A stretch of 64,000 nt of DNA from Planktothrix rubescens CCAP 1459/22 (GTDB taxonomy: Bacteria > Cyanobacteriota > Cyanobacteriia > Cyanobacteriales > Microcoleaceae). Under the pieces are notes generated by a model, which saw only the letters and a program-made list of their open reading frames with translations, searched no databases and was not told the origin of the DNA. The DNA lies in assembly GCA_904830895.1 (NCBI GenBank), contig LR882958.1:862001-926000 (forward strand), given 5' to 3'. Below, piece by piece: positions 6,788-43,924 of this stretch. A program made the position numbers and the translations under genes. The first letter of the stretch is position 1. Each line of letters starts with the position of its first letter.

Positions 6788-6819
6788 ATCGTACCTATAA
6801 CAAAGGTGGAGTTATCAAG

Positions 6820-6895
6820 GAGCCGTGTGAAGCGAAAGTTTCATGCACGGTTCTGAAGGAGAGGTTAGGGGGGTAACTCCCTAATCGACTCTAAC
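6820..6895 (+). ncRNA. Group II intron domains V and VI
   Basis: Domain V: stem GAGCCGTGTG.. paired with ..CATGCACGGTTC, with the AGC/GAAAG-type internal features (6820-6853). Domain VI: GAGAGGTTAGGGGGG pairs with CTCCCTAATCGACTCT; an unpaired A near the 3' side is the candidate branch point. Intron ends in AC at 6895. Confidence 0.85.
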
Positions 6896-25885: not shown

Positions 25886-25932
25886 TTCTGAAGAAGATAG
25901 AAACCTTCACTGGTATGGATGTGTCCCGATAA

Positions 25933-26178
25933 TTTTCCTTCAACTTAGGTTGGGGGAATTTTTTTTTGAGAATATCCCGATCAGAAATAATCCTAAAGGA
26001 ATAAACAAAAATAGATGCACCCTGATGGTTTTCCTTCAACTTAGGTTGGGGGAATTTTTTTTTGAGAATATCCTGATTATAAATAATCCTCAAGGAATAA
26101 ACAAAAGTAGATGCACCCTGATGGTTTCCTTCAACTTAGGTTGGGGGAATTTTTTTTTAAGAATATCCCGATCAGAAT
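25933..26178 (+). repeat. Three tandem 95-96-bp repeats, each with a terminator-like hairpin
   Basis: Units begin near 25933, 26029 and 26125 (the third truncated). Each contains CCTTCAAC-TTAG-GTTGGGGG (hairpins 25937-25956, 26033-26052, 26128-26147) followed by AA and about nine T residues, the form of an intrinsic terminator on the plus strand. They follow tRNA-Ser(UGA) by about 50 bp. The intervening 45 bp (AGAATATCCCGATCAGAAAT, then TAATCCT..) is also conserved, so the whole block was duplicated. Confidence 0.92.
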
Positions 26179-35273: not shown

Positions 35274-36482
35274 TTAACGGATTGGCGATCGCCCAATTCC
35301 GCGACGTGGGTTTGGGGTTGACCGATGATCAGCTAAAGAAATTACCTGGGCTTGATTTTCTTCTCTAGCTACCCGAATTAATAACCCAGCTAAAGCTAAA
35401 CTAGCAATCATGGAACTTCCCCCATAACTAAATAGGGGTAAAGGTAAACCTGTAGTTGGTAAAACCCCCGTGGCTACCCCAATATTTAATAAAGATTGTC
35501 CCACCATCACTACCATCACTCCCACCGCTACTAATTGATGTTCAATTTGTTGTGCTTTCATCGCCACTCTTAGGGCTAGGGTTGCATAAATTGTTAACAA
35601 TAATAACAATAATATCCCCCCAATAAAGCCAAATTCTTCCGCATAAACCGAGAAAATAAAATCACTATATTGAATCGGTAAATAATATAATTTTTGGTGA
35701 GATAATCCTAATCCCGTTCCCCAAAACCCTCCAGAACCTACCGCTAAAAGACTTTGAACTAACTGATATCCGTCTCCCATTGCATCAGACCAAGGATTTA
35801 AAAAAGATAAAATTCGTCGTCTTTGATATTCTTTAATAGTAACACTTAAAATAGCTAAAAGTACCCCGCCTAAAGCTGTTCCTCCTAAATAAGAAAAAGG
35901 CAGTCCCGCCGCTAAAGCCACTAACCAAAGAGTCATCCCACAAAGGGCGGTGGTACTGAGGTTTGGTTGGGTAAGAATAGATAATAAAACTATCCCAAAA
36001 ATTCCTAACCAAATTAACCGAACTTGCCAATTTAAACGATACCAATTGCCAAAAAAACGAGCACTTTGTAAGACCAAAAAAGGCTTCATTAACTCCGAAG
36101 GTTGAATCGGAATCGGCCCAATTGAAATCCAGCGTGTAGCTCCATTAATAGTAGTTCCTAATCCGGGAACTAAAGTCAGAAATAATAATCCCAGAACAAT
36201 TAAAACCCCCCATTGGGCAATTTTTAACCAAAATCTCAGGGAAGATTGAACAATAAAACTAAATCCGACTAATCCTACGGCTGTCCAAATTAATTGACGT
36301 TTAAAATAATATAATCCATCTCCTTGTTCAGCATAGGCGATGGGATAGGAAGCAGAAAACATCACAATTAAGCCTACAAATAACCAGAGAAAGGTTATCC
36401 AGTGTAACCATCTTGCTTCCGTTGACCAATGGGTCAAAAAAGAGGTAGAAAAAGGGAAAATTTGTTTTAAGTTCATCAGCAA
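35274..36482 (-). CDS. ftsW: FtsW/RodA-type lipid II polymerase (SEDS protein), probably FtsW
   Basis: SEDS-family peptidoglycan glycosyltransferase working with a class B PBP at the septum. 402 residues with about ten membrane spans. Family marks: VMFSASYPIAY near the start, IPIQPSELMKP, GDGYQLVQSLLAVGSGG, YSDFIFSVYAEEFG and LFSYGGSSMIA. The C-terminus is short and basic. FtsW is preferred over RodA because of the GTGLGLSHQKLYYLPIQYSD segment, but the distinction is not certain. ATG 36482 or ATG 36476. Confidence 0.9.
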   Translation of the reverse strand: MLMNLKQIFPFSTSFLTHWSTEARWLHWITFLWLFVGLIVMFSASYPIAYAEQGDGLYYFKRQLIWTAVGLVGFSFIVQSSLRFWLKIAQWGVLIVLGLLFLTLVPGLGTTINGATRWISIGPIPIQPSELMKPFLVLQSARFFGNWYRLNWQVRLIWLGIFGIVLLSILTQPNLSTTALCGMTLWLVALAAGLPFSYLGGTALGGVLLAILSVTIKEYQRRRILSFLNPWSDAMGDGYQLVQSLLAVGSGGFWGTGLGLSHQKLYYLPIQYSDFIFSVYAEEFGFIGGILLLLLLTIYATLALRVAMKAQQIEHQLVAVGVMVVMVGQSLLNIGVATGVLPTTGLPLPLFSYGGSSMIASLALAGLLIRVAREENQAQVISLADHRSTPNPRRGIGRSPIR

Positions 36483-36573
36483 GAAAATTAATGAGTTAGG
36501 CTTAGGGTTAATAATTTAGGATTTGGCGTTCAGGACAATTAAAATAATATCGAACTCAGGATAGCCAGTGGAT

Positions 36574-36787
36574 ATGTTCACTCGCAGAAGTCATCCTGAT
36601 CAACCCCTGATGGTTCAGCATAGTCCCAATTGTCGCACAATTCGGTTAATTGCGGGCCCAGAAGAATTTGTTCCTAGAGATCAAATCCGGGCTTTAGTGA
36701 TGGAGAAGAAAACAAGTAGAAACTCAATTTAGTTGGCAAGGTGTCGCCTTAAAATTAAGCGATCTTTATACTCAAATTCTGAGGTGA
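36574..36787 (+). pseudogene. Small gene with a frameshift
   Basis: ATG 36574 opens MFTRRSHPDQPLMVQHSPNC and continues TIRLIAGPEEFVPRDQIRAL to EKKTSRNSI and a stop at 36730. Just at the AAGAAAACAAG run (about 36709-36716) the other frame takes over with KQVETQFSWQGVALKLSDLY and TQILR, stop at 36785. Together the two halves read like one 70-residue protein with a one-base frameshift in an A-rich run. Family not recognised. Could be a true pseudogene or a sequencing error. Confidence 0.6.
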
Positions 36788-36824
36788 ATCTGCATAACTC
36801 TTAAAAACAGGAAATGAGACTTCT

Positions 36825-36866
36825 GTAACTTTTGATACTGTCTTTCGATTCAGAACTTGTTAATTT
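36825..36866 (+). promoter_or_regulatory. NtcA-activated promoter of the guanidine operon
   Basis: GTA-ACTTTTGA-TAC (GTAN8TAC, 36825-36838) stands exactly 22 nt before TAATTT (TAN3T -10 box, 36861-36866), matching the canonical class II NtcA promoter GTAN8TAC-N22-TAN3T. Transcription would start near 36873, about 17 nt before the riboswitch aptamer. It implies activation under nitrogen shortage. Confidence 0.8.
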
Positions 36867-36889
36867 CAGGACAAGTTTTAACTCAAATT

Positions 36890-37068
36890 AATTGCTTCTA
36901 GGGTTCCGGTTTGCTGCAAATTGCTGAAAACGACAGGTCCGAGAGAAGCAAGCTATCCTGGATTCAGATTTTAGGAATCCGTTCTTCAAAGAGGGTAGCT
37001 ACACGGCGGGAAAAAAGCCCGGGAGAAGTTTGTGAGTGGACGTACCTCGCAACGGCTCTCGGCTTTTT
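36890..37068 (+). promoter_or_regulatory. Guanidine-I (ykkC) riboswitch
   Basis: Conserved aptamer blocks occur in order: CTAGGGTTCCGG (36898-36909), GGTCCGAGAG (36936-36945), ACACGGCGGGA (37001-37011) and AAAAAGCCCGGGAGA (37012-37026). P1 can form between TTGCTTCT and AGAAGTT. Expression platform: CTCTCGG (37056-37062) is the exact complement of CCGAGAG in the aptamer (36939-36945) and is followed by CTTTTT, suggesting a terminator that ligand binding prevents. The gdmH ribosome binding site (AGGAG) lies at 37097-37101. Confidence 0.92.
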
Positions 37069-37108
37069 GCATGGTACGGATTGATCTGCATCTAACAGGA
37101 GTTATTCC

Positions 37109-38302
37109 ATGAGTGAGCAATCTGTTTTTCAACCTCCCGATGAAAATTTCAATGGATTTTCAACTGAAGCTCAACGCGCATTAGAACGGGAAAATCGCTT
37201 ACCTTTAACAGGTTGGCAACAGGAAGTAGATCGCGGTTTAGAATACGGTTTAGAAGCCGCAGAAAGTATCAAAGATCGCAGAATTCCGACGTTTTCCAGA
37301 GGAGAATTACCCCATTATGCGGGGATTAATACGTTTCTAAAAGCTCCTTATTTAGAAGATGTTCGTTTAGTCGGAAATTATGATGTTGCGATTATTGGAG
37401 TTCCCCATGATTCGGGTACAACCTATCGCCCCGGAACTCGTTTTGGCCCCCAAGGAATTCGCCGAATTTCTGCTCTTTATACCCCCTACAATTTTGAATT
37501 AGGGGTTGATTTACGCGAACAAATTACGGTTTGTGATGTCGGGGATATTTTTACGATTCCCGCTAATAATGAAAAATCCTTTGATCAGATTTCTAAAGGC
37601 ATTGCTCATGTTTTTAGTTCCGGTGCATTTCCGATTATTTTAGGCGGAGATCATTCCATTGGTTTCCCCACTGTTCGGGGTATTTGTCGGCATTTAGGCG
37701 ATAAAAAAGTTGGGATTATTCATTTTGATCGTCACGTTGATACCCAGGAAACCGACTTAGATGAACGGATGCACACTTGTCCCTGGTTTCATGCCACAAA
37801 TATGAAGAATGCCCCAGCTAAAAATTTAGTTCAATTGGGCATTGGTGGTTGGCAAGTTCCCCGTGAAGGCGTTAAGGTTTGTCGAGAACGAGCAACTAAT
37901 ATTCTCACGGTAACTGATATTATGGAAATGGGGTTAGATGCGGCGGCAAACTTTGCTTTAGAACGGGCATTAGATGGCACGGATTGTGTGTATATTAGTT
38001 TCGATATTGACTGTATTGATGCGGGTTTTGTCCCTGGGACAGGATGGCCGGAACCTGGGGGTTTATTACCTCGTGAAGTCTTACATTTACTCAAAAAAAT
38101 TGTTCAAAATGCTCCCGTTTGTGGCTTAGAAGTTGTTGAAGTTTCGCCCCCTTACGATATCAGCGATATTACTTCTTTAATGGCAACTCGCGTCATTTGC
38201 GATACCCTCGCTCATTTAGTGGTTTCAGGTCAATTACCCCGCAAACAAAAATCCTCCTATATTTACCCCGAATCTCAACCCGAACTCGTTCAATGGTCAT
38301 AG
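37109..38302 (+). CDS. gdmH: Nickel-dependent guanidine hydrolase (ureohydrolase family)
   Basis: Hydrolyses guanidine to ammonia and urea. 397 residues of the arginase/agmatinase fold: ILGGDHSIGFPTVRG, IIHFDRHVDTQETD and ISFDIDCIDAGFVPGTGWPE supply the dinuclear metal ligands. Three features separate it from agmatinase: a long N-terminal extension (residues 1-75), DRH in place of DAH, and GTGWPEPGG where most agmatinases have GTGTPEPGG. These match Synechocystis Sll1077, shown to be a Ni2+ guanidine hydrolase. Context agrees: guanidine riboswitch upstream, HypA/HypB nickel chaperones downstream. Often mis-annotated agmatinase (speB). AGGAG ribosome binding site before ATG 37109. Confidence 0.93.
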   Translation: MSEQSVFQPPDENFNGFSTEAQRALERENRLPLTGWQQEVDRGLEYGLEAAESIKDRRIPTFSRGELPHYAGINTFLKAPYLEDVRLVGNYDVAIIGVPHDSGTTYRPGTRFGPQGIRRISALYTPYNFELGVDLREQITVCDVGDIFTIPANNEKSFDQISKGIAHVFSSGAFPIILGGDHSIGFPTVRGICRHLGDKKVGIIHFDRHVDTQETDLDERMHTCPWFHATNMKNAPAKNLVQLGIGGWQVPREGVKVCRERATNILTVTDIMEMGLDAAANFALERALDGTDCVYISFDIDCIDAGFVPGTGWPEPGGLLPREVLHLLKKIVQNAPVCGLEVVEVSPPYDISDITSLMATRVICDTLAHLVVSGQLPRKQKSSYIYPESQPELVQWS

Positions 38303-38430: not shown

Positions 38431-38847
38431 ATGCACGAAACTGACATGACAAAGGCGTTAATTCTAACCGTAAAAGACTGGTGGAATTCACAGCCTGAAC
38501 CTTATAAAATTGATAAAATTCATTTGATTGTGGGCAAATTTACCTGTGTTGAACCTGTTAGTTTGCAGTTTGCTTTTGAAGTGCAAACCCGCAATACTTT
38601 TTTAGAAGGGGTAATCCTAGAAATTCAAGAAACTCCATTAATTGCCTATTGTCATACTTGTCAAACGGAATATTCCCCAGAAATCGGTTTACATTATGCT
38701 TGTCCGACCTGTCAGTCACCGATGGAAGATATTTGTTCAGGACGAGAATTAAAAATTGATCGCATTGAATATTCTATAGCAGGGAACAGGGAACAGGGAA
38801 CAGGGAACAGGGAGGAAAAGAGTTTACCTTCTGGTTTGTGCCCTTAG
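38431..38847 (+). CDS. hypA: HypA-type nickel chaperone for guanidine hydrolase
   Basis: 138 residues. Starts MHETDMTKALI, where the N-terminal Met-His-Glu binds nickel; the zinc site is CHTCQTEYS and CPTCQSP. Known homologues beside gdmH (GhaA) are needed for nickel loading of the hydrolase; no hydrogenase genes are present here, which supports this role. The last ~22 residues (AGNREQGTGNREEKSLPSGL) are encoded by GGGAACA heptamer repeats and look like an accidental extension past the normal end (RIEYSI). The frame is open further upstream through repeats; ATG 38431 is right because of the MHE motif. Confidence 0.92.
   Translation: MHETDMTKALILTVKDWWNSQPEPYKIDKIHLIVGKFTCVEPVSLQFAFEVQTRNTFLEGVILEIQETPLIAYCHTCQTEYSPEIGLHYACPTCQSPMEDICSGRELKIDRIEYSIAGNREQGTGNREEKSLPSGLCP
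38780..38814. repeat. GGGAACA heptamer array inside the hypA 3' end
   Basis: Four to five tandem GGGAACA units. Since 7 is not a multiple of 3, gain or loss of one unit shifts the reading frame of the HypA tail. Confidence 0.92.
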
Positions 38848-38896: not shown

Positions 38897-39610
38897 ATGC
38901 ACCAAACCTTTGATGTTAGTTTAGGAATTAATTTACTCCATGCGAATCAACATTTAGCCGATGATAACCGTTCCCATTTTGATCAATGGGGAATCACCTG
39001 TTTAAATATTATGAGTAGTCCAGGGGCGGGAAAAACGGTATTATTAGAAAAAACCCTAGAAGCTTTAAATTTAGAGTTAAAATTTGCGGTCATAGAAGGA
39101 GATATGACCACAGAATTAGATGCAGAACGATTGCGTCAATATAACGTTCCCGTGATTGCAATTAATACCGGGCGTTCCTGTCATTTAGATGCTAAAATGG
39201 TCTGGGGTGGAATTCATAAATTAGAACAAGATTATGATCCTCAAAGCTTTGATTTAGTCTTTGTGGAAAATGTGGGAAATTTAGTTTGTCCGGCCGAATT
39301 TGAAGTTGGAGAACACGCTAAAATTGCGTTATTAAGTATCACAGAAGGAGAAGATAAACCCTTGAAATATCCCATTATGTTTCAGGAAGCCGATTGTTTA
39401 TTAATCACAAAAATGGACTTAGCCCCCTATTTAGAGATTGATGTTGAACGCATCGCTGCTAATGTTCGACAAATGAATCCTCACGTTAAAATTATTCCGG
39501 TTTCTGCGAAAACGGGAGAAGGGTTAGAAACTTGGTTTGCATGGGTAAGAACACAAGTCAAAGCCAAGCAAACCCTAACCCCAGAAGCCTTAAATCTTCA
39601 GTCCATTTAA
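38897..39610 (+). CDS. hypB: HypB-type GTPase, nickel insertion
   Basis: 237 residues. G-motifs: [18 protein letters not shown] (P-loop), [13 protein letters not shown] and [10 protein letters not shown] (G4); the metal site typical of HypB is [12 protein letters not shown] plus [16 protein letters not shown]. The N-terminal CxxCGC and His-rich stretches of some HypB proteins are absent. Partner of the HypA protein 50 bp upstream (GhaB in published systems), delivering nickel to GdmH at the expense of GTP. AGGAG ribosome binding site. Same strand and operon. Confidence 0.94.
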
Positions 39611-39649: not shown

Positions 39650-40687
39650 ATGAAACGCAGAAAAATTTTATCCTTATTTGGGGTATTTGTAGCGAGTTTA
39701 GCGTTAATTGTAAGTTGTAATCAAGCCCAAAATTCCACACCGAATAATAACGCTTCAACTCCGACAACACCCCCCCTAATTATAGGATATAGTAATTGGT
39801 CTGGATGGTGGCCTTGGGCGATCGCAGAATCTGAAGGATTATTTAAAGCCAATGGCTTGAACGTTGAATTAAAATGGTTTGATGGCTATTTAGAATCCTT
39901 ACAAGCAATGGCGGCGGGACAATTAGATGGGAATTGTCAAACCTTAAATGATACGATTGCCTTTGTAGGTGATTCTAAAAATGGTCAAGTGGCGGTTTTA
40001 ATTAATGATAACTCTGCCGGAAATGATAAGATTATTGTAGCAGAAAATATCAATAAAATTCAAGATTTAAAAGCCAAAAAAGTCGCCGTTGAAGAAGGTT
40101 TAGTGGATGATTTCTTATTGGCGTTAGCTTTAGAAAAAGAGGGAATGTCTCGTCAAGATGTAGAAATTGTTAACTTAGAAACGGGGGCTGCATCTGCCGC
40201 CTTCGTAGCGGGACAAGTTGATGCAGTGGGGGCATTTCCTCCCTTTTGGTTAACAGCATTACAACGAAAAGGCAGTAAAGAGTTAATCAGTTCTAAAGAA
40301 TTTCCGGGGGCTATTCCCGATTTATTAGTGGTGAGTCAAAAATTGATTCAAGACCGTCCTGAACAGGTGCAAGGATTAGTTAAAACTTGGTTTGATATTC
40401 GAGAATTTATGGCAAAAAATCCTGAAAAAGCCAATGAAATTATGGCAAAACGGGCGGGAGTTTCTGGTGAGGAGTTCAAAATGTTTAATGATGGGACTAA
40501 ATTTTTTACCATTCAAGACAATTTAGAAGCCTTTAATTCTGGAAATTCCATGAAACATTTACCCTTTGCCGCCAAAAAAATGAGTGACTTTATGTTACAA
40601 GTGGGACTCCTCAAAACCAAACCCAATTTAGAACCCATTTTAGATGCTCAATTTGTTAAAAAATATGCAGAAGCTCTCAAACAATAA
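39650..40687 (+). CDS. ABC importer substrate-binding lipoprotein, probably for guanidine
   Basis: 345 residues. Signal peptide with lipobox (SLALIVSCN, Cys at about 24), then a Ser/Thr/Asn linker and a SsuA/TauA/NMT1-like periplasmic binding fold (LIIGYSNWSGWWPWAIAESE, DGYLESLQAMAAGQLDGN, GAASAAFVAGQVDAVGA). Such transporters are recurrent under guanidine-I riboswitch control. The many Trp residues near the N-terminus (NWSGWWPW) would suit cation binding. Substrate assignment is by context. 39 bp after hypB, 4 bp before the permease. Confidence 0.88.
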   Translation: MKRRKILSLFGVFVASLALIVSCNQAQNSTPNNNASTPTTPPLIIGYSNWSGWWPWAIAESEGLFKANGLNVELKWFDGYLESLQAMAAGQLDGNCQTLNDTIAFVGDSKNGQVAVLINDNSAGNDKIIVAENINKIQDLKAKKVAVEEGLVDDFLLALALEKEGMSRQDVEIVNLETGAASAAFVAGQVDAVGAFPPFWLTALQRKGSKELISSKEFPGAIPDLLVVSQKLIQDRPEQVQGLVKTWFDIREFMAKNPEKANEIMAKRAGVSGEEFKMFNDGTKFFTIQDNLEAFNSGNSMKHLPFAAKKMSDFMLQVGLLKTKPNLEPILDAQFVKKYAEALKQ

Positions 40688-40691
40688 TTCA

Positions 40692-41501
40692 ATGGAACCC
40701 AAACCTCGCCAAGCTTTAAAACCCACTGTTTTTTGGCGTATTGCTGAAAACATTCCTCCCGCTCTCAATTGGGTATTAGTCACCCTTTCCATTGTTATTC
40801 CTTTCTGTTTATGGTGGGTCTTAGCGTTAATTCTTAATTCTCGCTTTCTTCCCACTCCTCCCCAAGTTTTACAAGCGGGTTTTGGACTCTGGGAAAAAGG
40901 GTATTTAGTACAGGATACCGTAGCCAGTATTACACGGGTGACGTTGGGATTTTTCTTGGGGGCAATGTTAGCAATTCCGTTAGGAATTTCGATGGGATCT
41001 TTTGCCAGTATTCGGGCATTAACTGAACCCTTAATTGGGATTTTACGCTATATGCCCGCCCCGGCATTTATTCCCCTTTTAGTTTTATATCTCGGTATTA
41101 ATGAAGCTCCGAAAATCATGTTAATTTTTATCGGAACATTGTTTTTCAATACCTTGATGGTTATGGATGCGGTGAAATTCGTTCCCAAGGATTTAATTGA
41201 AACCACCTATACTTTAGGAGGAAATCGTCAACAGGTGTTAACGCAAGTGATTATTCCTGCCATTATTCCTAATATTATTGATGCCTTACGAATTAATATG
41301 GCAGCAGGTTGGAATTTAGTCGTTGTAGCCGAATTAATTGCCGCCGAAGTGGGGTTAGGCAAACGCATTGTTATTGCTCAAAAATTCCTGAGAACCGATG
41401 AAATTTTTGCCTGTTTAATCATTCTAGGTTTAATTGGGTTTGCCATTGATTTATCTTTTCGACTCCTATTAAAAACAACCTGCAAATGGGCTGTTGATTA
41501 A
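40692..41501 (+). CDS. ABC importer permease
   Basis: 269 residues, BPD_transp_1 family related to SsuC/TauC, with about six membrane spans. The cytoplasmic EAA loop is visible: ETTYTLGGNRQQVLTQVIIP. The frame is open from 40644, overlapping the binding-protein gene, but ATG 40692 (MEPKPRQALKPTVFW) lies 4 bp after the previous stop and gives a normal N-terminus. Acts with the neighbouring lipoprotein and ATPase. Confidence 0.9.
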   Translation: MEPKPRQALKPTVFWRIAENIPPALNWVLVTLSIVIPFCLWWVLALILNSRFLPTPPQVLQAGFGLWEKGYLVQDTVASITRVTLGFFLGAMLAIPLGISMGSFASIRALTEPLIGILRYMPAPAFIPLLVLYLGINEAPKIMLIFIGTLFFNTLMVMDAVKFVPKDLIETTYTLGGNRQQVLTQVIIPAIIPNIIDALRINMAAGWNLVVVAELIAAEVGLGKRIVIAQKFLRTDEIFACLIILGLIGFAIDLSFRLLLKTTCKWAVD

Positions 41502-41680: not shown

Positions 41681-42499
41681 ATGCACCTAGAAATAAATAA
41701 TCTTCATAAACAATTTCCCACCCGAACAGGGTTTTTAGTCGCCTTACAAAATATTAATCTGCACGTTGAAACCGGAGAATTAGTCTGTGCTGTTGGCGCA
41801 TCCGGTTCAGGAAAATCCACCCTATTAAGAATGATTGCCGGGTTAGATTATCCCACTTCGGGTAAAATTATCGTGGATGGAATGGAAGTCACCGGGCCTG
41901 GAGCAGACCGGGGAATGGTATTTCAACGCTATACCTTATATCCCTGGTTAACCGTCCAAAAAAATGTAGAATTTGGCTTAAAATTACAGGGGGTTTCCCA
42001 TCAACAACGCCGAGAACAAACCTCCTATTATTTAGATGTTGTTAGCTTAACTCCCTTTGCCCAATGTTATCCCAAACAACTCTCAGGAGGTATGAAACAA
42101 CGGGTAGCCATTGCCCGTGCTTTAGCCACACAACCGAAAATTTTGTTAATGGATGAACCCTTTGGGGCGTTAGATATTCAAAGCAAAGAAACCATGCAAC
42201 AATTTTTACGGCAACTGTGGCAAAAAACAGGTTGTACAATTTTAATGATTACCCACGACGTTGAAGAAGCGGTATTTCTATCCCAAAGAATTTATGTATT
42301 AAGTACCAGACCCGGACAAATCCAAGATGAATTTATAATTAATTTACCCGAAGAACGTAATTATAAAATCAAACGTCAATTAGAATTTCAAAAATATGTC
42401 GGTGATATTATGGATTTACTGCGGGGAAGCAAAGAAGAATCTGTTATAGCAGGGAACACCGGAACAGCCCCCCCCAATCCCCCGTGCACGAGGGGCTAG
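41681..42499 (+). CDS. ABC importer ATPase
   Basis: 272 residues, SsuB/TauB-like. Walker [19 protein letters not shown]-loop FQRYTLYPW, signature [16 protein letters not shown], Walker [13 protein letters not shown], switch ITHDVEEAV. It energises the neighbouring permease. The last ~18 residues ([18 protein letters not shown]) are encoded by short repeat DNA like that found in intergenic STRRs, so the natural end was probably earlier. The stop codon (42497-42499) lies in the target-site duplication of the following ISAs1-type element. Confidence 0.94.
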
Positions 42500-42501
42500 G
42501 G

Positions 42502-43924
42502 CAGGGCTGTTTCATGTTTGAAAATTATAGCCTACTTTTGGGTCATAATTCTCAAACATGATAGCTATTTTCCGAATAATTAATATTTCATATAATTGCT
42601 ATATTAATATTAATTATAGGAGGTATTATCTAAGCAGCATAAATATTCTTATTCCCTATGGAGTAAGACTTACATTCCCGATTTTTATCTATTTTTCCTA
42701 AATTAATTGCTCTATTTTTTCATTTTTAACCTTCGGATTAAGAGATAGCCACTAATTTCTCCCAATGATTTCCTAACCACCTTCTTCCCTCTGTTATTGA
42801 CAAAAATCCTAAACCTCTGAAAATATTCAATCCTAGGGTGTTGAGCAGTGCCCAATTAGTCGCGGCTTGTACTTGATGAATTTTCATACTATCCTCTTTA
42901 AATAACACATCTTTTACCCAATGAACTTGATTCTCAATCCCCCAATGCCCTTTAATTTTTTTGGAAAAAAAATCCGCCTTTTCCCAGATACTACTTATAT
43001 AATAAACCGTTTCTCTATAAGGCTTTTTTCCTCTGTATCCCCACCTTTCTACCTGAATTATACTTTGAATATGTTCCCAAGGGCTTTCAATTTTTATCGA
43101 ATTTTTAAACACTGATACCCGACGAGTTATTTCTCGTCCATGACCCCTCTCTTTTTGAGTATCTATACTTTCAGCTTTCGTCGTTTTTGTAATTTTTTCA
43201 ATTTGATTATACAGTTTGATTTGATTCTTTTTAACCGCGATTAAATAATCGTTTTCACTCTCGATAATCTTTCGGACTGTGGTGACATTACAATGTAACG
43301 CATCCGCAGTTATTAACTTTCCTTTTAGACCACATTCTTCTATTATCCCTTGGGCTACAGCTTGTTCTGAACCGGTTTTACTCTCGAACTTTTCCGTCGC
43401 TAATACTAATCCGGTTTCTTGACTAAATAGAGATACCATTATTACCATGTTTTGCTGCTGATTGCCTGGGTCTTTTACCGTACTTCTTAAACTTTTTCCA
43501 TCTATTGCTAATCCCTCTATTCCCTTTAATTTAGGAGAATTCTCTCTTGACCATTCTTTTACTATTTTGCTTAAATCCTTCTCGTCTACTCCTCTCATCA
43601 CCCTCCTTATTGTTGAATAAGATGGCATTCCTTGGCTATAGATATTGAATGTTCTTTTCAGGATAACTTCGTTGGCTTTGACAAAATATTCCATCTCTCG
43701 ATATCCTTGATGCCCTGACATCACCCCTAAAACTACTACTAATAGCACTTCCCATAAACTATACCTTTTTCCCTGATTTTTTCGGAAATCCTTGACTTCT
43801 TTTAAATTTTCTATTAAACTTGTTAGCATCTTTATTTTAGAAAAAAATGGTGATCGCTCTCCATTTTATCAGGTGGCGATCGCTCTTTCTTTACTCTTTT
43901 TCACCTGACTTTGAAACAGCCCTG
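42502..43924 (-). mobile_element. ISAs1-family insertion sequence, 1423 bp
   Basis: Perfect 13-bp terminal inverted repeats CAGGGCTGTTTCA (42502-42514) and TGAAACAGCCCTG (43912-43924), flanked by a 10-bp direct repeat GGGGCTAGGG (42492-42501 and 43925-43934). The transposase is complete on the minus strand. The left 236 bp are non-coding and contain an imperfect palindrome (CATGTTTGA..TCAAACATG). Intact ends and target duplication indicate a fairly recent insertion. Confidence 0.95.
42738..43829 (-). CDS. ISAs1-family DDE transposase
   Basis: 363 residues, full length. N-terminal DDE_Tnp_1-associated domain (KEVKDFRKNQGKRYSLWEVL), then the DDE core: GLAIDGKSLRST (first Asp), LITADALHCNVTTVRKII (second Asp) and the WGIENQVHWVKDVLFKED region (Glu). 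H-repeat-associated proteins of E. coli belong to this family. ATG 43829. No frameshift seen, so possibly active. Confidence 0.95.
   Translation of the reverse strand: MLTSLIENLKEVKDFRKNQGKRYSLWEVLLVVVLGVMSGHQGYREMEYFVKANEVILKRTFNIYSQGMPSYSTIRRVMRGVDEKDLSKIVKEWSRENSPKLKGIEGLAIDGKSLRSTVKDPGNQQQNMVIMVSLFSQETGLVLATEKFESKTGSEQAVAQGIIEECGLKGKLITADALHCNVTTVRKIIESENDYLIAVKKNQIKLYNQIEKITKTTKAESIDTQKERGHGREITRRVSVFKNSIKIESPWEHIQSIIQVERWGYRGKKPYRETVYYISSIWEKADFFSKKIKGHWGIENQVHWVKDVLFKEDSMKIHQVQAATNWALLNTLGLNIFRGLGFLSITEGRRWLGNHWEKLVAIS

Follow-up and report, generated by a model that had tools for sequence, protein, structure and literature searches.

The window, a 64,000-nucleotide stretch of the Planktothrix rubescens CCAP 1459/22 genome, contains a 626-nt gap (36483–37108) between a ftsW-like gene on the minus strand (35274–36482) and a divergent, plus-strand gene that encodes a GdmH-like guanidine hydrolase of the arginase family (37109–38302). 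The hydrolase protein is nearest to PDB chains 7esr and 7oi1 (deposited title 'probable agmatinase 2', E = 5.5e-233), which we take to be the Synechocystis GdmH. On the same strand follow a HypA-like nickel chaperone (GhaA-like; 38431–38847, start codon picked by eye; TIGR00100 and PF01155), a HypB-like nickel GTPase (GhaB-like; 38897–39610; TIGR00073), an ABC substrate-binding protein of the SsuA family (39650–40687; TIGR01728), an ABC permease (starting at 40644 or 40689 and ending at 41501; PF00528) and an ABC ATPase (41681–42499; PF00005). By analogy with sll1080–1082, the SsuA-family protein is a probable part of a guanidine importer. An ISAs1-family transposase gene lies on the minus strand directly past the ABC genes (42738–43829). 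The genome also carries a urease alpha gene and ntcA (TIGR03697, 381.9 bits compared to a cut-off of 244.95).

Two other features of the window are recorded here as separate observations. A group II intron match of 62 bits lies at 6818–6895. At 25919–26156, three tandem NsiR1-like hairpins with a T run, spaced about 96 nt apart and the first of them degenerate, can be seen by eye; the NsiR1 model (RF02399) scores 41 bits at 26105–26156 and 34.9 bits, below its cut-off, at 26009–26062, with two more matches elsewhere in the genome, one of them above the cut-off. NsiR1 is a heterocyst-linked RNA, and its copies are therefore odd in a genome where no nifH was found above cut-off.

The leader of the hydrolase gene is arranged as an NtcA-type box, a 22-nt spacer, the hexamer TAATTT, a guanidine-I aptamer, a hairpin with a T run, the ribosome-binding site AGGAG (plus strand, 37097–37101) and the ATG at 37109. 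The box, GTAACTTTTGATAC, has the form GTAN8TAC (plus strand, 36825–36838) and the spacer (36839–36860) separates it from a −10 element of the form TAN3T (36861–36866), so that the box and the exact 22-nt distance of a canonical NtcA-activated promoter are both in the sequence, as the earlier note had stated. Using the canonical rule that places such boxes near −41.5 (PMC3898017), the box centre at 36831.5 predicts a transcription start at 36873 on the plus strand, which is an inferred start that derives from the spacing rule itself. The Rfam match to the aptamer begins 14 nt past this position and its P1 stem about 20 nt past it, in agreement with the 'about 17 nt' given previously. A promoter scan of 36483–37200 found no sigma-70 type −35/−10 pair. 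We also considered the box as serving the divergent ftsW-like gene; on the minus strand, the six bases at the 22-nt distance do not, by eye, read TAN3T.

The aptamer matches the full guanidine-I model (RF00442, model positions 1–107) at 36887–37027 on the plus strand, with a score of 83 bits compared to a gathering threshold of 63 (E = 2.7e-13), and is the only guanidine-I match in the genome. Genes of guanidine metabolism (the GdmH-like hydrolase, nickel chaperone and ABC genes) lie behind it. Its conserved motif CCGAGAG (plus strand, 36939–36945) resembles a second one, CCGGGAG, at the aptamer's 3′ end (37019–37025). An intrinsic terminator is predicted at 37014–37068 on the plus strand, consisting of a 5′ arm (37014–37025) that overlaps the aptamer's 3′ strand, an inner stem, a 3′ arm (37056–37066) and a T run (37064–37068); such competition with the aptamer's 3′ strand is usual, but not universal, for RF00442. 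The predicted fold has a free energy of −23.8 kcal/mol (z = −3.39), and none of 200 shuffled sequences was equally stable. The same local hairpin appears when either 36939–37068 or the whole leader is folded, and in the former 36939 is not paired with 37056. A hairpin scan of 36483–37200 with loops restricted to 3–8 nt did not find the terminator.

A lone GTAN8TAC is uninformative, since the window contains 8 of them compared to 8.55 expected, and we therefore gathered the guanidine-I leaders of relatives. A guanidine-I match is present in 120 of 386 genomes of the phylum. The leader set combined 67 listed matches from the window's class, not counting the window's own, with contigs coding close relatives of the hydrolase (the best 80 of at least 569), giving 148 sequences with the window included. 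The aptamer core was located by pattern in 135 of these and was absent from 13. Rfam, run on 30 of the 80 hydrolase-relative loci including all 13 without the pattern, recovered one of the 13 (L117), while two loci with the core pattern (L112 and L157) did not reach the gathering score. Clustering reduced the 135 sequences to 120 non-redundant leaders, 118 of which have 250 nt of upstream sequence.

We found a strict GTAN8TAC box within 250 nt upstream at 80 of the 118 guanidine-I sites, compared to 4.2 on average and never more than 10 across 200 dinucleotide shuffles, and we rejected a chance box on this ground. The complete arrangement of box, 22 nt and TAN3T occurs at 28 of 118 sites, compared to 0.125 expected from the shuffles. 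In control stretches, the box appears in 5 of 114 leaders when located 550 to 300 nt upstream, and in 0, 1 and 6 of 120 for three stretches between 400 and 1250 nt downstream; a box with a −10 element 21–23 nt beyond it appears 0, 0, 0 and 2 times across these four stretches, the latter being 2 of 120 in an in-gene stretch, a result that counts against our best explanation. When only the phylum-drawn sample is considered, 42 of 68 sites carry the strict box, spread over 19 of the 21 families.

The spacing between box and −10 element, whose comparison in related genomes had been suggested beforehand, is similarly constrained. Base frequencies past 81 boxes reveal a T-rich flank and a TGnTA at +19 to +23, and TAN3T is located at an offset of 22 nt in 28 of these boxes; elsewhere between 5 and 44 nt, no single offset accounts for more than 7. 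The agreement is partial: TAN3T is found at 21–23 nt for just 36 of the 81 boxes, which counts against NtcA-type activation. The distance from the start of the box to the aptamer's CTAGGG core varies from 55 to 234 nt, and none of 84 strict boxes lies closer than 55 nt, even though the search ran to the core, as would be needed for an RNA that begins ahead of P1.

Several groups of sites depart from the strict arrangement. Using a leave-one-cluster-out matrix, 94 of 120 sites score above the 99% level of 595 shuffles; the 26 failures count against our best explanation. Of these, 13 come from one family (f25), a further 10 are hydrolase sites, 9 of them lacking the strict box and 1 possessing it, and the last 3 are other sites. 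Family f25 has the strict box at 0 of 13 sites, and in all 13 there is a GTAN9AC at 58–62 nt, compared to 0.12 expected from single-base shuffles. At 16 of 120 sites, no hydrolase of more than 60% identity was found downstream of the aptamer; judged by eye, their first open frames resemble, among others, urea-carboxylase-associated-like and ABC substrate-binding proteins, and 9 of the 16 have a strict box. In one genome, two guanidine-I sites (L033 and L034) lie about 3.5 kb from each other, each with a strict box, one ahead of a urea-carboxylase-associated-like gene and the other ahead of an ABC substrate-binding gene, as judged by eye. Eleven close gdmH relatives (L101, L118, L119, L129, L133, L142, L143, L150, L163, L171 and L174) have neither an aptamer, by pattern or Rfam gathering score, nor a strict box within 500 nt upstream, and one further relative (L103) has the box and no aptamer. 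Box and aptamer seem mostly to have been lost together in gdmH relatives.

We performed the same calculation on other riboswitches. For cobalamin riboswitches, 116 genomes of the window's class were searched, and of the 30 best-scoring loci, each from a different genome, 0 have the box. A distant family of guanidine-I sites (f31; 22 of 23 fetched loci usable) has the box at 3 of 22 and the box with a −10 element at 0 of 22, a comparison that is blind to the presence of ntcA there; the 3 of 22 exceed the shuffle expectation and count against our best explanation. In leaders with a glutamine riboswitch (L215–L244), the box is present in 19 of 30, in each case 21–29 nt before the aptamer, and the box with a −10 element 21–23 nt beyond it is present in 0 of 30. 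A box this close to the aptamer should cover the core promoter, which fits the repression of gif genes by NtcA (PMC6316151). The positions therefore suggest that NtcA has an activator's place before guanidine-I and, as it seems, a repressor-like place before the glutamine switch. Together, the box at 80 of 118 sites, the peak at a spacing of 22 nt and the absence of the box from the 30 cobalamin loci indicate that NtcA-type activation ahead of guanidine-I recurs across cyanobacteria.

The same leaders bear on which strand the terminator's 3′ arm captures. The earlier note had proposed that CTCTCGG (37056–37062), the exact complement of CCGAGAG (36939–36945), suggests how the switch works. The complementarity is real, but goes along with the likeness of the aptamer's two motifs. 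Of 120 leaders, 83 satisfy an automatic rule for terminators, 36 fail it and one lacks the motif; 12 of the failures belong to f25, and several others have, by eye, a hairpin ahead of a short T run. As this rule picks the arm by its pairing to the 3′ motif, it is biased toward that motif, and we rescored 117 of the 120 leaders (3 lack a motif) by the best 7-mer located 8–70 nt downstream against each motif, with the arm not fixed. The 3′ motif scores better in 90 leaders, the 5′ motif in 25, the window among them, and 2 are ties. With G-U pairs allowed, full 7-mer complements match only the 3′ motif in 49 leaders, both motifs in 24, only the 5′ motif in 0 and neither in 44. CTCCTGG and CTTCTGG are frequent arm sequences, and both leave the second A of GAGAG in CCGAGAG mismatched. 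Within the window, the 5′ motif pairs slightly better (seven Watson-Crick pairs, compared to a pairing with one G-U at 37019–37025), so the window is indecisive when considered alone and the relatives decide. The arm comparison and predicted folds indicate that CTCTCGG probably serves as the 3′ arm of a local terminator, capturing aptamer strand 37016–37025; the proposed partner at 36939 was probably wrong, and its complementarity is judged incidental.

Family f25 differs here as well. Its 13 sites (L078, L081, L084, L086–L089, L092 and L094–L098) have no convincing terminator, the one that passes the rule doing so at just −9.5 kcal/mol. Their start codons lie 17–38 nt past CGGGAG, and in several a CTCCC-like stretch in between could pair with GGGAG. 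At these sites the switch may operate at the level of translation.

The arrangement of the window's leader suggests the following mechanism. Under nitrogen shortage, NtcA together with 2-oxoglutarate would bind to 36825–36838 and bring the polymerase to the −10 element at 36861. Transcription would begin near 36873, and the guanidine-I aptamer would be the first RNA made. Without guanidine, 37056–37066 would capture aptamer strand 37016–37025 and form the terminator with its T run at 37064–37068. With guanidine, the folded aptamer would keep its 3′ strand, the terminator would fail and the gdmH-hypA-hypB-ABC operon would be made. The sign of the switch would then be that of most guanidine-I riboswitches, which are usually transcriptional ON switches that prevent a terminator (PMC12186494; PMC8390497). 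On sequence comparisons, we consider it very likely that a putative NtcA promoter and a terminator switch together make this leader an AND-type gate for scavenging guanidine; the strictness of the AND forms a separate matter. The reading of a putative class II NtcA promoter stacked on a guanidine-I riboswitch as a two-input gate, first made from the window's letters, thus gains support from the comparison, with ntcA present in the genome and the arrangement recurring across cyanobacteria. Considering that the same pairing of promoter and riboswitch is found in many cyanobacteria, the operon is probably fully on only when nitrogen shortage and guanidine coincide.

A less strict version, nested within the proposed mechanism, is a possibility that we hold with some reserve: NtcA binds, but guanidine alone is a strong inducer and nitrogen status sets only the ceiling. 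Guanidine is toxic to cyanobacteria (PMC8390497), so some response would be useful even in nitrogen-rich cells, and an inducible system cited in PMC13226834 joins a constitutive promoter to a guanidine riboswitch. The class II placement of the box, together with the lack of a recognizable −35 element, instead suggests that the promoter depends on its activator. It is unlikely that the promoter is constitutive or driven by another factor, with an inert GTAN8TAC and guanidine as the sole control. The chance-level count of boxes in the window would allow it, as would the −10 elements of many relatives, which stray from TAN3T; against it stand the recurrence of the box, its spacing and its place upstream of the aptamer, and the outcome of the sigma-70 scan. 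Least probable of all, and rejected on the arm comparison and the local fold, is a switch formed by the long-range pairing of 37056–37062 with 36939–36945, for all its exactness.

Taken more broadly, the comparisons tilt us slightly toward a general rule whereby cyanobacteria yoke riboswitches for nitrogen compounds to NtcA, with a sign set by the ligand, while switches for other ligands (cobalamin) remain uncoupled. If so, guanidine would be an outside nitrogen source that is wanted only in hunger, hence an activator's placement, and glutamine would be a signal of plenty, hence a promoter-blocking placement before its riboswitch; the AND gate in the window would be one case of a phylum-wide design. 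Guanidine-I and glutamine riboswitches would form a pair served by a single transcription factor, seemingly with opposite signs. For most of the leaders examined, the data also point to guanidine-I as a nitrogen-assimilation switch under global nitrogen control, rather than a stand-alone sensor. Guanidine alone is then predicted not to be a full inducer in nitrogen-rich medium, a point that matters when the switch and its native promoter are used together to control genes.

The operon and its guanidine-I riboswitch are already known. A literature search, from which a key 2025 paper fell outside, returned no description of an NtcA site on a guanidine riboswitch in the accessible texts, which is no proof of novelty. 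The closest system is the gdmH operon sll1077–1082 of Synechocystis sp. PCC 6803, which shares the aptamer family (guanidine-I, ykkC subtype 1) and the gene set of a hydrolase, two nickel-delivery proteins and an ABC importer (PMC10094980). The accessible texts on this operon describe no NtcA promoter ahead of its riboswitch, unlike the predicted one here, and the sll1077 leader was not identified among the sequences compared. Excess ammonium lowers sll1077–1082, which agrees with NtcA activation; the effect disappears when a protease gene is mutated, and the accessible text does not list the operon among the targets of NtcA (PMC10094980).

Two other groups of promoters offer comparisons. The gifB gene of Synechocystis, and likewise PMM1846 of Prochlorococcus MED4, combines NtcA with a glutamine riboswitch (PMC6316151). 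Like the leader studied here, these place a riboswitch for a nitrogen ligand behind a promoter with an NtcA site, bringing two nitrogen inputs to one leader; according to the accessible text, NtcA represses the gif genes, whereas the box here has an activator's place. The class II NtcA promoters of urtA, nirA, ntcB and glnA have a GTAN8TAC near −41.5 and a TAN3T −10 element (PMC3898017). The predicted promoter shares both of these elements with them, as well as nitrogen-scavenging genes downstream, but differs in that a riboswitch lies between its start site and the gene.
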